64,000 nucleotides of DNA from Pseudobutyrivibrio sp. (GTDB taxonomy: Bacteria > Bacillota > Clostridia > Lachnospirales > Lachnospiraceae): NCBI GenBank assembly GCA_024697025.1, contig JAILGH010000092.1, positions 1-64,000 of the forward strand, written 5' to 3'. The translations under genes were made by a program, and so were the position numbers. The notes below the pieces were generated by a model. That model was not told where the DNA came from and searched no databases. It worked only from the letters and a program-made list of their open reading frames with translations. Below, in pieces: positions 997 through 30,379 of this stretch (positions are counted from its first letter, which is position 1; each line of letters starts with the position of its first letter).

Positions 997-3360
997 ATGA
1001 AAAAATATATTAAAAAATTATCCACCACGTTAATTTCGATTGTTGTGGTAATCTTTACTATTTCCACTAACACGATAGTTGCTAAAGCAGCAGACAATAC
1101 CTCTAACAGCCCCTCGACTGGCAATAGCCCAAACGCGGCCAAGGAGCTGTCCTTTCTTCCCTTCAGGGCCGATTACGTCAATTATATTTCACAAAATGCA
1201 TCTGCAAAAAGCGATATTGTTCAAAAGATTTGGTTGAAATTATTTTACGAAGAAACTCACTGGAACAAGGGCCAATCCTACTACACTGCCGGCAATGCCA
1301 AATGGTCAAATAAGTACTATGGAAATTACATTGGCGCAGATGGCAAAACCAGAAGTTCCAAAGGGGTTCAGACAACTTATAATCCCGCTTTCGATGGATT
1401 TTTATATTCCACGTTAACTGCTAATGAAGATTTCGTAATCAATTGGATTAATGAAAATCCTGATGTGTTCGCCAAGTACTGCAAAGATGCCAAATCCCAT
1501 CCATTTCTAGCTGATGCTATTATAAAAATCACTTCCTCTACCAATACTTCGCAGAACTATCTCGGAAGCGGAAAGGACTCAAAAAATAATTTATTTGAAT
1601 ACGGAAAGAATGTCACTGGCGCTAACAAGCATGGCGGCAAGGGGCCCGGCCCTAAATGGACTAATTCTGGGGCAAGGGAGTCATGGCACGATATCGATGT
1701 CCTTAGAATTCTAGGAAGCAAGTGGAGCAAGCTGAGTCAGACTCAAAAAAATTGGGTAATTACTTACCTGCCTTGGCTTGTTGATAATTACATTTCAAAT
1801 AAAAATAATGGTATAGCAAGCCCAAGCAATTCCAACGACCTTTATAAACTAATGGCTGAATCCGGATATGGTATGACCAAACCTCAAGTCAACCAGGAAT
1901 TTTTCAATTACTGCATTAGCAATGGCGATGCATTTGTGGGAAATCTAATTGTCAATGGTGCCACAACTTATGGTTGTAGCGGAACCCTCCGAACCAATGA
2001 CGTAAATACGAATTCTGATATGAATGCCATTTGGGCGGCGGACGCTGACTGTGATTATAATTCAGCATGGGCCGGGGGCTCTGGAAAAGGTCTTGGTGAT
2101 AATGATTATGACTGGCTTGCCTATCAGATTTGTTTTGGCACTAATTCTTTTTATTCTACATTAAGAAATCTTGTAGCAGGAAGCAGCGACACGAATCCAC
2201 TTATGCAGGATTGGCTAATGCGTTATTATGTGAAGCATCCCACCTCTGGTTCAGGTGAAATGGCAAATGCTGTTGCAAAAGCCGGCACCACCGAGGGAAT
2301 CACTCTTGGAAAATTCGTTGTTGGCAGCTGCGGAAGGCTTTCTACTACTGATGGAAAAGCCTGGGACTGCCAAGGACATATCGACAACTCGCCACTGATG
2401 ACTTACAACAAGCCACTCGGTGTCAAATCCGTTGTTCTTAGAGTTCATTCTGATTCTCCTCAATTCACCTATTCAAAATCTTTAGGTTATAAAATTTATG
2501 ACTCCGCCAATGGAAATGTCATTGCACAGGGAGGTGGCGTGGAGGTTGCAACAGTAGAAATCCCTGCTGCCTACATATGGTCTTCCACAATTGTAATTGA
2601 AGTTTCCGGAACGGTTTATCAGGGACACATTGGCCACAACAGTGGCGGCGGATGTTGGGGAACAACTAAGGGTGCTGAAGAAGTTGCCCGCGGAAACACC
2701 AACATCAGAATCCCCTATCATGCAATCACCGCTGATTACACTTATACAGATTTTGATCACTGCACAAAGCACGGCCACAACTTTACAGTATCTGGCTACA
2801 ATTGGGCTTCAGATTACTCAAAATGTACAGCCACAATCACCTGTCCTAACTGCGGCAAATCATATCAGGTTACCGATTCAAATATCGTAGTAAACAACTA
2901 TTCTGACAAAATCACCTACACCGCAAATTTCCCTCACACTTCTGAGGTTGCTCCTAAGACAGCCACCACCTTAAAGGGCTCCAAAACCAAAACGTATACA
3001 ACTTATAATTTGGATGGCAAACCACAGGGTACCGGTAAGGGAACATGTTCACTCCCAAACAGTAAAATTGGCATTGGTGCTAAAAAAATGACGGTCTCGG
3101 TTACTGCCAGCGAAGCCACTATTAAGGTTATGAACAAATATGGCCAGGAGATTTCTAGCCGGACGCTTTCAACAGGTGCACCAACATCTGAGGAATTAAT
3201 CGCTATATTTGATTTTTCCGGATTATCAGATGAAAAATGTGATGGCATGTATGTAATCGTAAATATGAGCGCCACCGTCCGCTACTATTCGCGAATTGGA
3301 TATTATCTTGGCACAAGGGATGGTAACTACAGCTTAAACCGCATCGTAATTGAATACTAA
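997..3360 (+). CDS. Large secreted protein of unknown function with an internal CPxCG-type zinc-ribbon-like segment
   Basis: RBS aggagg before ATG; N-terminal signal peptide (KKYIKKLSTTLISIVVVIFTISTNTIVAKAAD); internal CTKHGHNF...CTATITCPNCGKSY. Confidence 0.85.
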   Translation: MKKYIKKLSTTLISIVVVIFTISTNTIVAKAADNTSNSPSTGNSPNAAKELSFLPFRADYVNYISQNASAKSDIVQKIWLKLFYEETHWNKGQSYYTAGNAKWSNKYYGNYIGADGKTRSSKGVQTTYNPAFDGFLYSTLTANEDFVINWINENPDVFAKYCKDAKSHPFLADAIIKITSSTNTSQNYLGSGKDSKNNLFEYGKNVTGANKHGGKGPGPKWTNSGARESWHDIDVLRILGSKWSKLSQTQKNWVITYLPWLVDNYISNKNNGIASPSNSNDLYKLMAESGYGMTKPQVNQEFFNYCISNGDAFVGNLIVNGATTYGCSGTLRTNDVNTNSDMNAIWAADADCDYNSAWAGGSGKGLGDNDYDWLAYQICFGTNSFYSTLRNLVAGSSDTNPLMQDWLMRYYVKHPTSGSGEMANAVAKAGTTEGITLGKFVVGSCGRLSTTDGKAWDCQGHIDNSPLMTYNKPLGVKSVVLRVHSDSPQFTYSKSLGYKIYDSANGNVIAQGGGVEVATVEIPAAYIWSSTIVIEVSGTVYQGHIGHNSGGGCWGTTKGAEEVARGNTNIRIPYHAITADYTYTDFDHCTKHGHNFTVSGYNWASDYSKCTATITCPNCGKSYQVTDSNIVVNNYSDKITYTANFPHTSEVAPKTATTLKGSKTKTYTTYNLDGKPQGTGKGTCSLPNSKIGIGAKKMTVSVTASEATIKVMNKYGQEISSRTLSTGAPTSEELIAIFDFSGLSDEKCDGMYVIVNMSATVRYYSRIGYYLGTRDGNYSLNRIVIEY

Positions 3361-3375
3361 AAGGAGGATAAAACT

Positions 3376-4248
3376 TTGAAGAAAAGAATTATTATATCTA
3401 TCATTGCCGCAAGCTTATGCGCATTTAATATAAATTCTGTTTGCCTAGCAAAAGAACCTAATGAAGAGACTGAAGAAACTCATGCAGAAATAGATTCAAA
3501 GATAACCAATGAATTTTTAGAATTTGAAACTGAAAAAATTGTTTCAAATGATGAAAGTTTATCTGGTGAAACAAGGCAGTTAGAAAAAGAAGTTGTAATT
3601 AAAAATAAAGAATACTTCTACGACATCAATATAACTTATTCAAAAGAAGTGTATGAAAATCCTATCACCATGACAGGAGTTACTTCAGTGAATTTGGATT
3701 GTTCTTTTGAAATTCCAGAACATGGCCAACTAGATGAAAAACTAATTTCAGATGATTCTGATGTAACCAAAATCATTGATGCAATAGACTTTCCTGAGAC
3801 TTTGCAAAACGGTTATAACATCATCGCCTCAATTAATTTAGATGGCCAAGTTTCCATTGAATCCATTAAAGAAACTAACGCAATCGAGAAAGAGACTGAA
3901 GTAGTAATCTATGAAGAAGTTGAGGAAGATGATGAGGAAGAAATTGAAGATGAAGACTTAGCGGAGGATAATGCTGAAAATCAAATCATCGAAGACGAAA
4001 ATTTCACGTTGGGTGATGCCTCTGAAGTTCAAGACGTTGAAAGCATCGCTACCAAGGACGATACATTCTCTACCGATAAAGAATATAATAGTTCTGAAGA
4101 GTTGTCTGAAGATAAATATAAAACAAATGAAAAAAATAAAGCAGAAATCGCTGTAAACAGTGATTCTGATTCTCTCAACTCAAAAAACAAATCGGAAGAA
4201 ACTTTAGATATTAAATCTGAGAATCCTTCCGAAGAAAATATCGATTAG
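3376..4248 (+). CDS. Secreted, highly acidic Glu/Asp/Ser-rich protein
   Basis: aaggagg RBS with TTG start; signal peptide-like N-terminus; acidic low-complexity C-terminal half; 15 bp downstream of the previous CDS. Confidence 0.8.
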   Translation: MKKRIIISIIAASLCAFNINSVCLAKEPNEETEETHAEIDSKITNEFLEFETEKIVSNDESLSGETRQLEKEVVIKNKEYFYDINITYSKEVYENPITMTGVTSVNLDCSFEIPEHGQLDEKLISDDSDVTKIIDAIDFPETLQNGYNIIASINLDGQVSIESIKETNAIEKETEVVIYEEVEEDDEEEIEDEDLAEDNAENQIIEDENFTLGDASEVQDVESIATKDDTFSTDKEYNSSEELSEDKYKTNEKNKAEIAVNSDSDSLNSKNKSEETLDIKSENPSEENID

Positions 4249-4270
4249 AATAGCATTGTGAATTAAACGA

Positions 4271-4306
4271 AAAAACTCAGAACCAATCCGGTTCTGAGTT
4301 TTTTCT
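4271..4306. terminator. Intrinsic terminator between convergent genes
   Basis: ACTCAGAACC-aatcc-GGTTCTGAGT followed by TTTTTCT, with an A-tract on the other side. Confidence 0.9.
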
Positions 4307-5102
4307 AAATCAAATTAAAATGCTTCAGCGCATTATAAATACCATCATCATCAAAGGCTGTAGTAACATAGTCTGCGGCAGCCTTAGCATTGTCGGTGCC
4401 ATTGCCCATTGCAATACCCACAGCTGCAGCCTCAAGCATATCCAAATCATTTTCGCTGTCGCCAAGGGCAAAGGTATTCTTTGGATCGATGCCGATTAGC
4501 TCGCAGGCCTTAAGCATTCCTGTGGCCTTGTTGTGACCTACTGGAACAAGCTCGCAAACACCCTCATTGTGAGTAATGATTTCGTAATCATCGGACAAAC
4601 GCTCAAAACACTCGATTCGTTTATCGGCCTCAACATCTGTAGCACAAGACATCTTGTTGATTACCCAATTGCCATAGTAATCGCCTCCGATTGTAACCAA
4701 GTCCTTTCCTATATCACGTCTAATGATATTTCCAAACATGTCATCCAACCCAAACTCGCTTTCATCTAAATACATGTGCTTTGGCCCCTCGAGAATAGGT
4801 CTAAATCCGTAGCTTCGAATAAGCTCGATTGTATCCTTTGCAAAAGCCTTATCAATAAGCTTTTCATACAAAATCTTGCCGTCTATCTCAATGTGGCATC
4901 CACAGGAGCAAACTATCCCGTCGAAGCCCATACCTAATAAATTCGGATCCTGAATAAACGCTCTAGCGCGCCCGCTGCAAATAAAAGCCATATGGCCATT
5001 TTCTCTAAGCTTTTTAATAGCAAGCTTGGTGCTTTCTGGAATATACTTATCGTAATTCCAAAGTGTTCCGTCGATGTCAAAAAAAACTGCTGCCTTTTTC
5101 AT
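4305..5102 (-). CDS. HAD-superfamily phosphatase (Cof/sucrose-phosphatase type)
   Basis: MKKAAVFFDIDGTLWNYDK (motif I) and ALGDSENDLDMLEAA; start moved to the internal Met at 5102 to remove overlap with the upstream gene. Confidence 0.9.
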   Translation of the reverse strand: MKKAAVFFDIDGTLWNYDKYIPESTKLAIKKLRENGHMAFICSGRARAFIQDPNLLGMGFDGIVCSCGCHIEIDGKILYEKLIDKAFAKDTIELIRSYGFRPILEGPKHMYLDESEFGLDDMFGNIIRRDIGKDLVTIGGDYYGNWVINKMSCATDVEADKRIECFERLSDDYEIITHNEGVCELVPVGHNKATGMLKACELIGIDPKNTFALGDSENDLDMLEAAAVGIAMGNGTDNAKAAADYVTTAFDDDGIYNALKHFNLI

Positions 5103-5136
5103 TAAAAATATATCTCCAAAATCTAAAACTTCTTGT

Positions 5137-6075
5137 CTAAACCCAAAGGCGCATCCAAAGATTGTGATGTGCACGGGTAAAATTATTTTCTCTGTAAAAT
5201 CTCATTCTAGATAGCTTAGGCTTGGACCCTATGTGAATAAAATTGGTTAAAGTCACAAGCTTGTCCTCTGGAATATCTTTCAATCTTACAACCTCTCTGG
5301 CAAAAAGTCTAGCCTCGTTAATAAAGGCTTTCTTCTTGGCAAAAAATCCAGCTGTTGTTTCATGAAGATTTCGATTTACCTTTTCTGCAATAGTCTCAGT
5401 CTGGGCTCCCATTGTGTTGGAACCAGTCTGGCGATAATAAACCAATGGCTCATCTATACAGCCCACCTTTCCAAAGATAGCCGCAAGCTCAAGTAGCCAT
5501 GAATCATGCATAGGCACATTTTCCCACTGTATGCTATCGCAAGAAAGAGCCAAATCTCTAAGAGCCCTATCAAAACACATAGTAGTCCCTGCTGCAGGAT
5601 TATCAATCAAAATCTGAGTATAAGCTATGTTTCCAGGGTCTCTGCCAATATATCGTATAAACGAATCAGACAGAGTATTCATCTCTGCGTCAACCACATA
5701 CATATCTGTAAAAATTGCAGTTGGCTCCTTGCCGCCCTCCTTCAACTCTCTAAGGGCATCCAAGCTCTTTTGAATCTTGTCCTCAAGCCAAACATCGTCC
5801 TGGTCACACAAGAAATAATAGTCCGCTTCAATTTCCGAGAGAAGATAAATAAAATTGGCCTTTGGTCCTCCGCATGGATTGCCATATATTATCTCTACAC
5901 GCTCTGGATATTTATCGTGATACTCTTGCAAAATCTCTATTGTATTGTCTGTTGAGCCATCGTCATGGACCACAAGTCTAAAGTCCTGATTAGTCTGATT
6001 AAACAAACTATCAAGCTGCTGCTTTAGATACTTATCCCCATTATACGTGGCAAGCAAAATTACAACATTCTCCAT
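5137..6075 (-). CDS. GT2 family glycosyltransferase (rhamnosyltransferase-like)
   Basis: VVILLATYNGDKYLKQQLDSL, DDGSTDNT, DQDDVW. Confidence 0.9.
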   Translation of the reverse strand: MENVVILLATYNGDKYLKQQLDSLFNQTNQDFRLVVHDDGSTDNTIEILQEYHDKYPERVEIIYGNPCGGPKANFIYLLSEIEADYYFLCDQDDVWLEDKIQKSLDALRELKEGGKEPTAIFTDMYVVDAEMNTLSDSFIRYIGRDPGNIAYTQILIDNPAAGTTMCFDRALRDLALSCDSIQWENVPMHDSWLLELAAIFGKVGCIDEPLVYYRQTGSNTMGAQTETIAEKVNRNLHETTAGFFAKKKAFINEARLFAREVVRLKDIPEDKLVTLTNFIHIGSKPKLSRMRFYRENNFTRAHHNLWMRLWV

Positions 6076-27665: not shown

Positions 27666-28655
27666 TTATATATTACATCCTACATCCTTATGATTTAAGG
27701 AACCATAAATAGCATAGGTAAGACATTTCAAGCCACCCTTGCAATAATTGCTGTGCTCACACTTTTCGCAATCATTAGGAATATTATCTTGCCGCAAAGT
27801 TTTTAAAGTCTCATTGTTCATATAAAGCTCATACATATTTTCAGTCAAAAGATTTCCAACAACGATAGGCATTCTCCTGCATGGAACCAAGTCACCATTC
27901 TCCATTACCGTCAAAAGACTGTCGCCAGCGGTACAGCTATAGGCATAGTCATTGGTCTTTAAGAATTGCAGTGCCCTGTACATTGCCACATTGGTACTAG
28001 AATGTTTTTCCTTTAGCCAGCGTCTCGAATCTGCCATCAATTGAAGATATTCTGATGTTTCTTCCCTGGTCATCTGTAAATCCAATTCTTTATCATCCCC
28101 CAAAGGAATGAATCTATCAGACCAGACATTATCCACTTTATGGCGCCTAGCAAACCTTACCACCTTAGGAAATTCTTTGTAATTTAACTTCGTAGCTGTA
28201 AAAGAAACTGATACGTATATACCATATTTTTTAAGACTCTTTATTGCTTTTGCCACCTTCGAATACACGCCCTTGCCACGGATATAATCATTGGTTCGTC
28301 TACCACCCTCTAGGCTAACCTGAACGTACTCTGGATTATAGCTACTAATTTTTTGGGCCACTTCCTCTGTAACAAGAGTCCCATTTGTAAGAATGGAAAA
28401 ACTATATAAATCGCCGTCCTTCTTAAACTCATCTAATAGCTTATAAAAATGTGGAGAGCACAGTGGCTCTCCTCCAGTTAAATTTATATGTCCTCGCACA
28501 TTTAATTTCTCTAACAGCTGCCTGTACTGCTCTAAAATATCATAAAGCTGCGAATAGGAAAGCTGTATCGGTGTGTGGCAATCCTGATAACAGTGAAGGC
28601 ATTTAAGATTGCATTGCTCTCCTATATGCCACTGCAAAATGAATCGGCCTACCAT
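27666..28655 (-). CDS. Radical SAM/SPASM domain protein, candidate modifier of the adjacent Cys-rich tail
   Basis: CNLKCLHC (CxxxCxxC); SPASM-like C-terminus CTAGDSLLTVMENGDLVPC...CEKCEHSNYCKGGLKC; start at ATG overlapping the upstream stop. Confidence 0.92.
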   Translation of the reverse strand: MVGRFILQWHIGEQCNLKCLHCYQDCHTPIQLSYSQLYDILEQYRQLLEKLNVRGHINLTGGEPLCSPHFYKLLDEFKKDGDLYSFSILTNGTLVTEEVAQKISSYNPEYVQVSLEGGRRTNDYIRGKGVYSKVAKAIKSLKKYGIYVSVSFTATKLNYKEFPKVVRFARRHKVDNVWSDRFIPLGDDKELDLQMTREETSEYLQLMADSRRWLKEKHSSTNVAMYRALQFLKTNDYAYSCTAGDSLLTVMENGDLVPCRRMPIVVGNLLTENMYELYMNNETLKTLRQDNIPNDCEKCEHSNYCKGGLKCLTYAIYGSLNHKDVGCNI

Positions 28656-30379
28656 GAGCCACCACCTCCGCAAGATGAGCAGCCACCACCACATGAAGAA
28701 CAACCGCCACCGCAAGATGAACAGCCGCTACTACTGCCGGAAGAACGGGTAGCAGTTCCATCTGTATATGCCAACGCATCATAAATCTTATCTATCTTTT
28801 CAACGTATGCATATTCCTCACCCTCAGGGATTGGGAATTTTTCAATCCATTTTTTAGAAACACCAAGCACATAAGCATAAGGCAGTATGTTGAAGAAATA
28901 ATTCGGATTTTCCTCCACCAACATATCTATCCTATCCTTCTCAGCCACCTCCAAATAATTTCTGAAACCATTAATTTTGGCTGCTACAACCTCTCCATAT
29001 GTACTCTTTCTGTGCATCTGATAAATGCATACTAAAGAAACAACAATTGCTGCATATGACAGAACATAAAATATTGAAAATGCCGGATTAAGCATTTCTC
29101 TCTTGTATGTTATAAACCAGATAAGAATAATCCAAAATGGTGTTGCGCTAGTCAAGAATTTAACCCTATAGGATGCTATATCGTTAATCTTATCCTGAAA
29201 TTCTTCTCTGACGCTCTCTGCAATTTGCGAATACACCTTGTGAAAGTTCTTATGGTCTTTAAGTACTATTTCGTCGCCATCCTCAAAAAGCTTGTTATAG
29301 ACAAGCAATTCATTTTTCGTCAAATCATCAACTGCTTTTTCAGTTTTCTTGACTTTAAGCTTATCTTTTCTGCTGGTATTTAAAATCTCCAAATATCCTT
29401 TTGAAGCCAACTCAACAATCAATGAAATGGCCAGTTTCTTACCTGCATCCTTTACATAAAGATAGCCAATTTGAGCTGCATCAAGATTGTATGGAGGATA
29501 AAACTCCACAGTCTCTGGCTCTTTAGGCAAATCCTTGCCAAAGCGATACCAAAGCAGATATATTATCCCTGCATAAGCGATGCATATCAAAAGACTCAAC
29601 AGAGCGCTGCTATCGTAGTTGTCGGCTCCGCCAACAAAATATCCCTCTGGCAACTCTATGTCTACCGTCAAAGATTTAGTCAAATCATAGTCTGAATTGA
29701 CCCTAGCATACAAAGTGCTACCGTCTACCACATATTTTACATGGGATGTTATATCATCTTTTCTTTTTTTATCAGCAAAAAAATATACTGTATCTTTAGG
29801 GTCAAAGTTCTTTGGAAGATTGACTGTAACAGAAGCAGCCTTTATAGGAGTACCCCAATAATCTCCAAATGCATGGAAGATGAATTCATCAAAACCATTG
29901 TATGGGTCCTTACCCATATCATATGTGTAAGAAATATCGTAGCGATAGGTACCTTCGGATAAGGTGTGATAAGATTTACCAATTTTAATACGCTTCTTGC
30001 GTTTTACAGTATCCACCGTATATGTCTCATTCTCGCATCGTAAATTGGTTATTACACCTTTTCTTGAACTAGTCTTTCCATCCTTGCTAGTGTACTTTAA
30101 CCACTCCGGAATAAAACGATATATTCCATGATGACCACCCTCATAGAAATCTATATATACAGTTTCATCGACATCAATCTTGCCATCTTCTTTCACATCA
30201 AGATCTACGTGGTATGCACCAATTGTAAATCCATCAGCCTTAGAGCTTGGTCCCGCTGTAGCTTGGCTTATAGTATTTCCTATGGCAATATAAGAAACAA
30301 TTCCAAAAAATACAATGGCAACACCAAGAAAAAATCCACTCCAGCCAGATAGAATTTTAATTTTCTTTCCCCTAAACAT
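28649..30379 (-). CDS. DUF2207 membrane protein with Cys/Gly/Ser repeat C-terminus
   Basis: DLDVKEDGKIDVDETVYIDFYEGGHHGIYRFIPEW typical of DUF2207; TMs; C-terminus GSSSGCSSCGGGCSSCGGGCSSCGGGGSW. Confidence 0.9.
   Translation of the reverse strand: MFRGKKIKILSGWSGFFLGVAIVFFGIVSYIAIGNTISQATAGPSSKADGFTIGAYHVDLDVKEDGKIDVDETVYIDFYEGGHHGIYRFIPEWLKYTSKDGKTSSRKGVITNLRCENETYTVDTVKRKKRIKIGKSYHTLSEGTYRYDISYTYDMGKDPYNGFDEFIFHAFGDYWGTPIKAASVTVNLPKNFDPKDTVYFFADKKRKDDITSHVKYVVDGSTLYARVNSDYDLTKSLTVDIELPEGYFVGGADNYDSSALLSLLICIAYAGIIYLLWYRFGKDLPKEPETVEFYPPYNLDAAQIGYLYVKDAGKKLAISLIVELASKGYLEILNTSRKDKLKVKKTEKAVDDLTKNELLVYNKLFEDGDEIVLKDHKNFHKVYSQIAESVREEFQDKINDIASYRVKFLTSATPFWIILIWFITYKREMLNPAFSIFYVLSYAAIVVSLVCIYQMHRKSTYGEVVAAKINGFRNYLEVAEKDRIDMLVEENPNYFFNILPYAYVLGVSKKWIEKFPIPEGEEYAYVEKIDKIYDALAYTDGTATRSSGSSSGCSSCGGGCSSCGGGCSSCGGGGSW
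28652..28738 (-). repeat. Three 21-bp repeats encoding CSSCGGG within the DUF2207 tail
   Basis: Direct translation; forward strand shows recurring ccaccaccncangaagancag-like units. Confidence 0.9.

Follow-up and report, generated by a model that had tools for sequence, protein, structure and literature searches.

Architecture of the DUF2207–radical SAM gene pair

The analysed window (the whole stretch of DNA, 64,000 nucleotides) carries on its minus strand a gene for a DUF2207 protein, one of the large membrane proteins of unknown function that are widespread in bacteria, and an overlapping gene for a radical SAM (rSAM)/SPASM enzyme. The features of the pair are as follows.

28649..30379, minus strand: gene for the DUF2207 membrane protein, the presumed substrate (576 aa; PF09972 and PF20990)
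29021..30337, minus strand: span of four predicted membrane helices, residues ~15-33, 258-276, 405-427 and 434-453 (hydropathy and AF2 model)
28652..28723, minus strand: Cys tail CSSCGGG-CSSCGGG-CSSCGGG-GSW, residues 553-576 (sequence)
28703-28723, 28682-28702 and 28661-28681, minus strand: the three CSSCGGG units, followed by GSW
28649..28655, minus strand: 7-nt overlap of the rSAM start (ATGG) with the DUF2207 stop (TAG), (A/T)TGGTAR at 28 loci
27666..28655, minus strand: gene for the rSAM/SPASM enzyme, presumed to modify the tail (329 aa; PF04055 and PF13186)
28590..28613, minus strand: CNLKCLHC at residues 15-22, a CxxxCxxC motif that holds the SAM-binding [4Fe-4S] cluster (alignment)
27675..27935, minus strand: SPASM region, with C241, C259, C296, C299, C305, C311 and C327 invariant in 21 orthologues

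The initial annotation had described a DUF2207 protein with a (CSSCGGG)x3 tail and an overlapping rSAM/SPASM enzyme, and this arrangement is real. In profile searches the DUF2207 protein matched PF09972 (83.9 bits; cut-off 24.4) and PF20990 (104.5 bits; cut-off 33), and the enzyme matched PF04055 (84.6 bits) and PF13186 (30.4 bits), both over the gathering scores. The enzyme gene starts inside the last two DUF2207 codons (TCATGG-TAG end), at a conserved ATG at 28655; the open reading frame list gives an upstream TTG start. The 7-nt overlap is identical at all 28 loci checked, and translational coupling of the two genes is probable.

The C-terminus of the DUF2207 protein is GCSSCGGGCSSCGGGCSSCGGGGSW. 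A long, flexible, Ser-rich linker precedes the repeats; a two-unit pattern matched the window at 28662-28702 and 28683-28723. The repeats are composed of Cys, Ser and Gly only, with no acidic acceptor residues, and the tail Cys codons are all TGY, with no selenocysteine codon. Across the phylum, the motif CxxCGGGCxxCGGG occurred in one of 379 genomes, the window's own, and the reversed pattern gave zero matches in the same set. The terminal ten residues (CSSCGGGGSW) are invariant among homologues while the identity of the DUF2207 body is 33-81%, and an identical 17-residue ending, CSSCGGGCSSCGGGGSW, is encoded by 23 distinct DNA versions. A low-complexity or assembly artefact is ruled out by this constant protein sequence with its varied synonymous codons. 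The number of Cys per tail is 2, 4, 5 or 6, the two-Cys tail being that of genome G175. GGG(S/A)W ends are common to Cys-tailed and Gly-tailed DUF2207 proteins; because the latter share it, this end is a feature of the DUF2207 family and not the end of a product. Comparison of the isolated tail with HMM profiles gave noise only, and the Foldseek matches of the DUF2207 protein (M1 aminopeptidases and others), with whole-chain TM-scores <0.3, were uninformative as to its function.

Hydropathy and the positive-inside rule, applied to 33 homologues, predict that the N-terminal domain lies outside and the C-terminus inside. The AF2 model of the DUF2207 protein (pTM 0.72) contains the membrane helices and has residues 539-576 disordered (pLDDT <50). 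As predicted by these models, the Cys tail would be cytosolic and flexible, and so placed would be reachable by a cytosolic enzyme. A study of S. mutans SMU.243, deletion of which causes acid, peroxide and biofilm defects, predicts the same topology for DUF2207 proteins generally (PMC10457818).

The enzyme combines the CxxxCxxC core (C15, C19 and C22) with a seven-Cys SPASM region, as befits an rSAM/SPASM enzyme, and these ten Cys are invariant in the 21 aligned orthologues; the seven SPASM Cys presumably bind two auxiliary clusters. An eleventh invariant Cys, C66 (28458-28460, minus strand), immediately follows the GGEP motif (GGEPLC). It is invariant in the DUF2207-linked clade, is missing from the more distant relatives treated below (G317, G001:C29 and the ACGX enzymes), and is a possible catalytic residue. 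The AF2 model of the enzyme (pTM 0.82) resembles SkfB, SuiB, anSMEcpe and PqqE, with SkfB as the best Foldseek match.

Co-occurrence of the Cys tail and the enzyme

A close orthologue of the enzyme was found in 9 of 29 Pseudobutyrivibrio genomes, each time behind a DUF2207 gene with the same kind of tail (on the G004 contig the DUF2207 gene is present only in part). Six further readable DUF2207 tails of the genus have neither the CSSC repeat nor an adjoining orthologue; one of these proteins (L043) has two isolated Cys. Among 35 readable DUF2207 tails from 397 genomes of the family, the CSSC tail and the enzyme were present in G175 only. For genus and family together, the enzyme lies beside 10 of 10 Cys-tailed and 0 of 40 Gly-tailed DUF2207 proteins (Fisher p ~1e-10, uncorrected for relatedness), and some of the Gly-tailed proteins without it share genomes with Cys-tailed pairs.

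A scan of one genome per species (85,462 species) located the enzyme at 13 loci with 63-83% identity, in Pseudobutyrivibrio sp. RUI542 and in 12 genomes titled Bacilli, Tenericutes, Erysipelotrichaceae or Bacillales, with isolate names (RUG, Lapin) that presumably point to rumen and rabbit gut. Every one of these loci has an overlapping DUF2207 gene that encodes a Cys tail, and the pair frequently follows a lemA-like gene. Twelve further readable DUF2207-type proteins, from 11 of the Bacilli-type pair genomes, have Cys-free tails and no rSAM gene behind them. When the tail was searched for without considering the enzyme, using the pattern CxxCGGGG-x-W-stop in 214 genomes of the Bacilli-type order, seven genomes matched, five of them new, and the enzyme was encoded downstream of the tail in all seven. 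The pair loci number 28, from nine Pseudobutyrivibrio genomes, two other genomes of the family (one of them G714, with its broken DUF2207 gene) and 17 Bacilli-type genomes.

The pairing of tail and enzyme is not due to chance. The compared genus, family and Bacilli-type tails bear out the earlier statement that the usual DUF2207 tail is rich in Gly/Ser and lacks regular Cys, and a search for Cys-tailed DUF2207 proteins lacking the enzyme returned none (10/10 and 7/7 with it). Because the Cys tail always comes with the enzyme and the Gly tail never does, it is most likely, as had been proposed, that the enzyme acts on the C-terminal end of a large membrane protein. The data strongly support a dedicated system acting on the tail, and we consider it very probable that the tail is modified; the co-occurrence would fit equally well a tail that serves the enzyme in some other way.

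Phylogeny and spread of the pair

In a tree that included DUF2207-linked and ACGX enzymes, the 26 DUF2207-linked enzymes tested formed one clade (support 100/99), separate from the ACGX enzymes (100/100). An association of this rSAM clade with another substrate had been named as a possible objection, and the single DUF2207-linked clade gives it no ground. Within the clade, the Pseudobutyrivibrio enzymes and the G175/G714 pair sit apart from each other among Bacilli-type sequences, which suggests transfer of the pair between classes, several of the deep branches being weak. Distances between the enzymes and between the DUF2207 bodies correlate with r = 0.87, a value reached by none of 5000 permutations, as would be expected of two genes travelling together. 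In G714 (L144, G714:C38:71000-79406), frameshifts have broken the DUF2207 gene, and a tail remnant and an intact overlapping rSAM gene are kept.

Carriage of the pair by a phage or plasmid was rejected, as no phage or plasmid match was obtained at the thresholds used; a viral contig gave a single weak, partial match (34%, residues 14-94).

Enzyme families and predicted chemistry

rSAM/SPASM enzymes at ~30% identity can differ in chemistry. The best curated families for all 21 orthologues are TIGR04340 (ACGX) and TIGR04082 (SbtM), both far below the cut-offs. The window enzyme scores 155.5 bits against SbtM (cut-off 350), over profile positions 199-497 of 516, with ~195 N-terminal positions of the model missing from it, and 155.1 bits against ACGX (cut-off 400), a model that all 21 orthologues match over nearly their whole length and on which a true ACGX enzyme scores 562. 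For that true ACGX enzyme, the next-best family is also SbtM. The score against PapB (NF047865) is 93.1 bits (cut-off 340), and the StsB model also matches. Membership of SbtM or ACGX was rejected on score and on partner, and membership of PapB on its score and on the absence of a CX3D motif from the repeats. The ACGX-repeat peptide model (TIGR04341) matched neither the tail nor the whole DUF2207 protein.

SbtM acts on Cys or Sec to give a (seleno)thiooxazole, and has been shown to take four hydrogens from Cys in forming the thiooxazole (PMC11002830). Copper is bound by the thiooxazole peptides that MNIO enzymes produce; these peptides have an absorbance at ~305 nm, which is noted for the SbtM product too (PMC12668002). 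By kinship to SbtM, thiooxazole formation by the tail enzyme is put at slightly less than an even chance, and the varying number of Cys per tail (2, 4, 5 or 6) fits Cys that would be modified singly.

The initial annotation had instead favoured thioethers, of the sactionine or ranthionine type, from tail Cys to neighbouring Ser or Gly. Many SPASM maturases of Cys-rich peptides do form such links; among the likenesses of the present enzyme are its best Foldseek match, SkfB, its matches to the PapB and StsB models and its seven SPASM Cys, as in maturases with two auxiliary clusters. However, its PapB score is 93 bits where SbtM and ACGX each reach 155, and PapB joins Cys to Asp within CX3D (PMC10470005), whereas the repeats consist of Cys, Ser and Gly alone. 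Nor do odd counts of Cys and a variable number of units suggest fixed rings. Thiooxazole is ranked before thioether because the enzyme comes closest to ACGX and SbtM, the latter a thiooxazole-forming family; thioether chemistry is no longer favoured and is regarded as unlikely.

More distant relatives of the enzyme were seen beside other Cys-containing sequences. In G317 (39% identity; L083, G317:C55:13000-23000, 3006-5527), an overlapping pair comprises a different DUF2207 protein, with PF09972 only, whose tail, SSCSSCSSCSSCSSCGGGGAD, is a (CSS)n variant. In G001:C29 (L061, G001:C29:1-3513), a second rSAM enzyme that shares 39% identity with the window enzyme has upstream of it an unrelated protein, rich in Ser and Asn, that ends in GNGGSSGNDFGGCITWR, with one Cys near the end (DFGGCITWR); this locus may represent a related system of that kind with a single Cys. 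ACGX enzymes (~30% identity) accompany free peptides with SACGSACGAADPKPEEKP-like repeats. As read from these sequences, most of the wider enzyme group adjoins Cys-Gly or Cys-Ser repeats, and the clade of the window enzyme is the branch in which the repeat is fused to a membrane protein.

Gene neighbourhood

The neighbours of the pair differ between lineages, and no other target is conserved beside it. Neither a conserved protease or exporter nor a small free repeat peptide was seen at the inspected pair loci, and reading the window neighbours by eye gave no evident MNIO (DUF692) gene. A lemA-like gene often adjoins the pair in both Bacilli-type and Lachnospiraceae genomes (L147-L149, L152, L154-L156, L082, L065 and L069), and LemA may be functionally connected with DUF2207.

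In G014 (L063, G014:C16:829000-841000, ~3380-3950), the pair is divergent from csoR-like and copA-like genes, and two perfect TACCCCC-N2-AGGGTA palindromes resembling CsoR operators lie between them. A general copper link through such palindromes was discarded, G014 being the only pair locus with them.

Proposed function of the pair

On balance, the probable explanation is that the pair is a system dedicated to modifying the tail, with Cys oxidation of the SbtM kind as the foremost candidate chemistry. Compared with the initial reading, the pairing of tail and enzyme and the membrane-protein tail as likely substrate have stood, the thioether chemistry has not, and the side of the membrane on which the tail lies has been refined to the (predicted) cytosolic one. 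The DUF2207 and rSAM genes would together form a self-contained protein-tail modification system, in which coupled translation would yield enzyme and substrate together. The tail, (CSSCGGG)n-GSW, disordered and anchored to the membrane on its cytosolic side, would act like the core peptide of a RiPP, its CSSCGGGGSW unit being recognised by the enzyme, perhaps without a leader peptide. The enzyme would then oxidise the tail Cys, each Cys with its preceding residue becoming a 5-thiooxazole (-4 H, ~-4.03 Da per Cys).

A soft metal, perhaps copper, may be bound by the modified tail on the inside of the membrane, and the metal-loaded tail could then buffer the metal or sense it and act through DUF2207. 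A metal role is considered doubtful, and copper as the metal a shade more so; the thiooxazole precedent and the single G014 locus lend the copper role weak support. More tentatively than the modification system itself, and as a proposal more likely wrong than right, an rSAM enzyme that needs no leader peptide may introduce multiple thiooxazoles into the cytosolic C-terminal tail of a membrane protein that stays intact, to give a membrane-tethered metal (copper) site, as an independently evolved counterpart of the MNIO/TIGR04222 systems.

Alternatively, the tail may not be a substrate at all: as an unmodified metal, Fe-S or redox tail with CxxC pairs, it could tether the enzyme or donate electrons to it. 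The CSSC pairs could hold Zn or Fe-S, the enzyme requires an electron source, and the co-occurrence, as stated above, is equally well accounted for. However, the lineage-dependent neighbours offer the enzyme no other conserved target, the related ACGX enzymes pair with free Cys-repeat peptides of their own, and the five-Cys tails and the two-Cys tail of G175 make no fixed four-Cys site; an unmodified tail is judged improbable. Modification followed by cleavage and export of the tail, as a RiPP carried on a membrane protein, has RiPP-like logic and the long, flexible Ser-rich linker on its side, but is very improbable given that no conserved protease or exporter adjoins the pair, that the GGG(S/A)W end belongs to Gly-tailed DUF2207 proteins as well and that the tail is predicted to be cytosolic.

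Comparison with known systems

The rSAM/SPASM maturases of peptides have mostly been met with free precursors as substrates; in the present case the evidence suggests an enzyme devoted to the C-terminal tail of a large membrane protein. A RiPP in the usual sense has a free precursor from which a core is released after a leader; here the only Cys repeat is the tail of a 576-aa protein. What would be new is the move of rSAM maturation from a free peptide to a membrane-protein tail, with CSSCGGGGSW as a short tag that would mark a target for a radical enzyme, possibly with no need of a leader. The open literature, outside which most subscription journals lie, yielded no published description of a DUF2207 tail–rSAM system and no paper naming the ACGX system.

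The ACGX system resembles the present one in having a related rSAM/SPASM enzyme of the same length beside a Cys-Gly repeat, and occurs in the same bacterial family. In contrast to the membrane-protein tail of the window, its repeats (SACGSACGAADPKPEEKP) are found on a free small peptide, and its enzymes form the separate clade noted above, with sirtuin-like, nitroreductase and HxlR-type neighbours; such free Cys-repeat peptides with these conserved neighbours were observed at ACGX loci of the family including L084, L085, L087 and L089. SbtM is the joint best-scoring family and, of the two nearest, the only one with known chemistry. The window enzyme differs from it in scoring below the cut-off, in lacking the SbtM N-terminal part and in having a membrane protein without a Sec codon as its presumed substrate. 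PapB and the other ranthipeptide and sactipeptide maturases likewise combine rSAM and SPASM domains, two presumed auxiliary clusters and a Cys sequence encoded next door, whereas the window system has neither the CX3D motif nor a free leader peptide.

Ordinary DUF2207 proteins, such as S. mutans SMU.243, share the domains, the predicted topology and the C-terminal glycine-rich stretch, but the 52 compared have no repeated tail Cys and no adjoining rSAM gene. We know of no tail modification in DUF2207 proteins of the SMU.243 type, and thiooxazoles, if present in the Cys tail, would provide a first biochemical handle on DUF2207.

A further close parallel is found in the MNIO (DUF692)/TIGR04222 systems, where membrane proteins with C-terminal Ser/Gly-rich Cys tails adjoin a presumed Cys-modifying enzyme and have been proposed to be modified as proteins and not as peptides (PMC12452194). 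The DUF2207 protein itself gave no match to TIGR04222 at E 10. The MNIO enzyme is a multinuclear iron enzyme unrelated to radical SAM, its link to the tail is looser (MNIO is absent in a third of genomes), and the TIGR04222 tails are predicted to be periplasmic (PMC12452194), unlike the predicted cytosolic Cys tail of DUF2207. If thiooxazoles are present in the latter, the unrelated rSAM and MNIO enzymes would have arrived at membrane-protein tails modified in a like manner.
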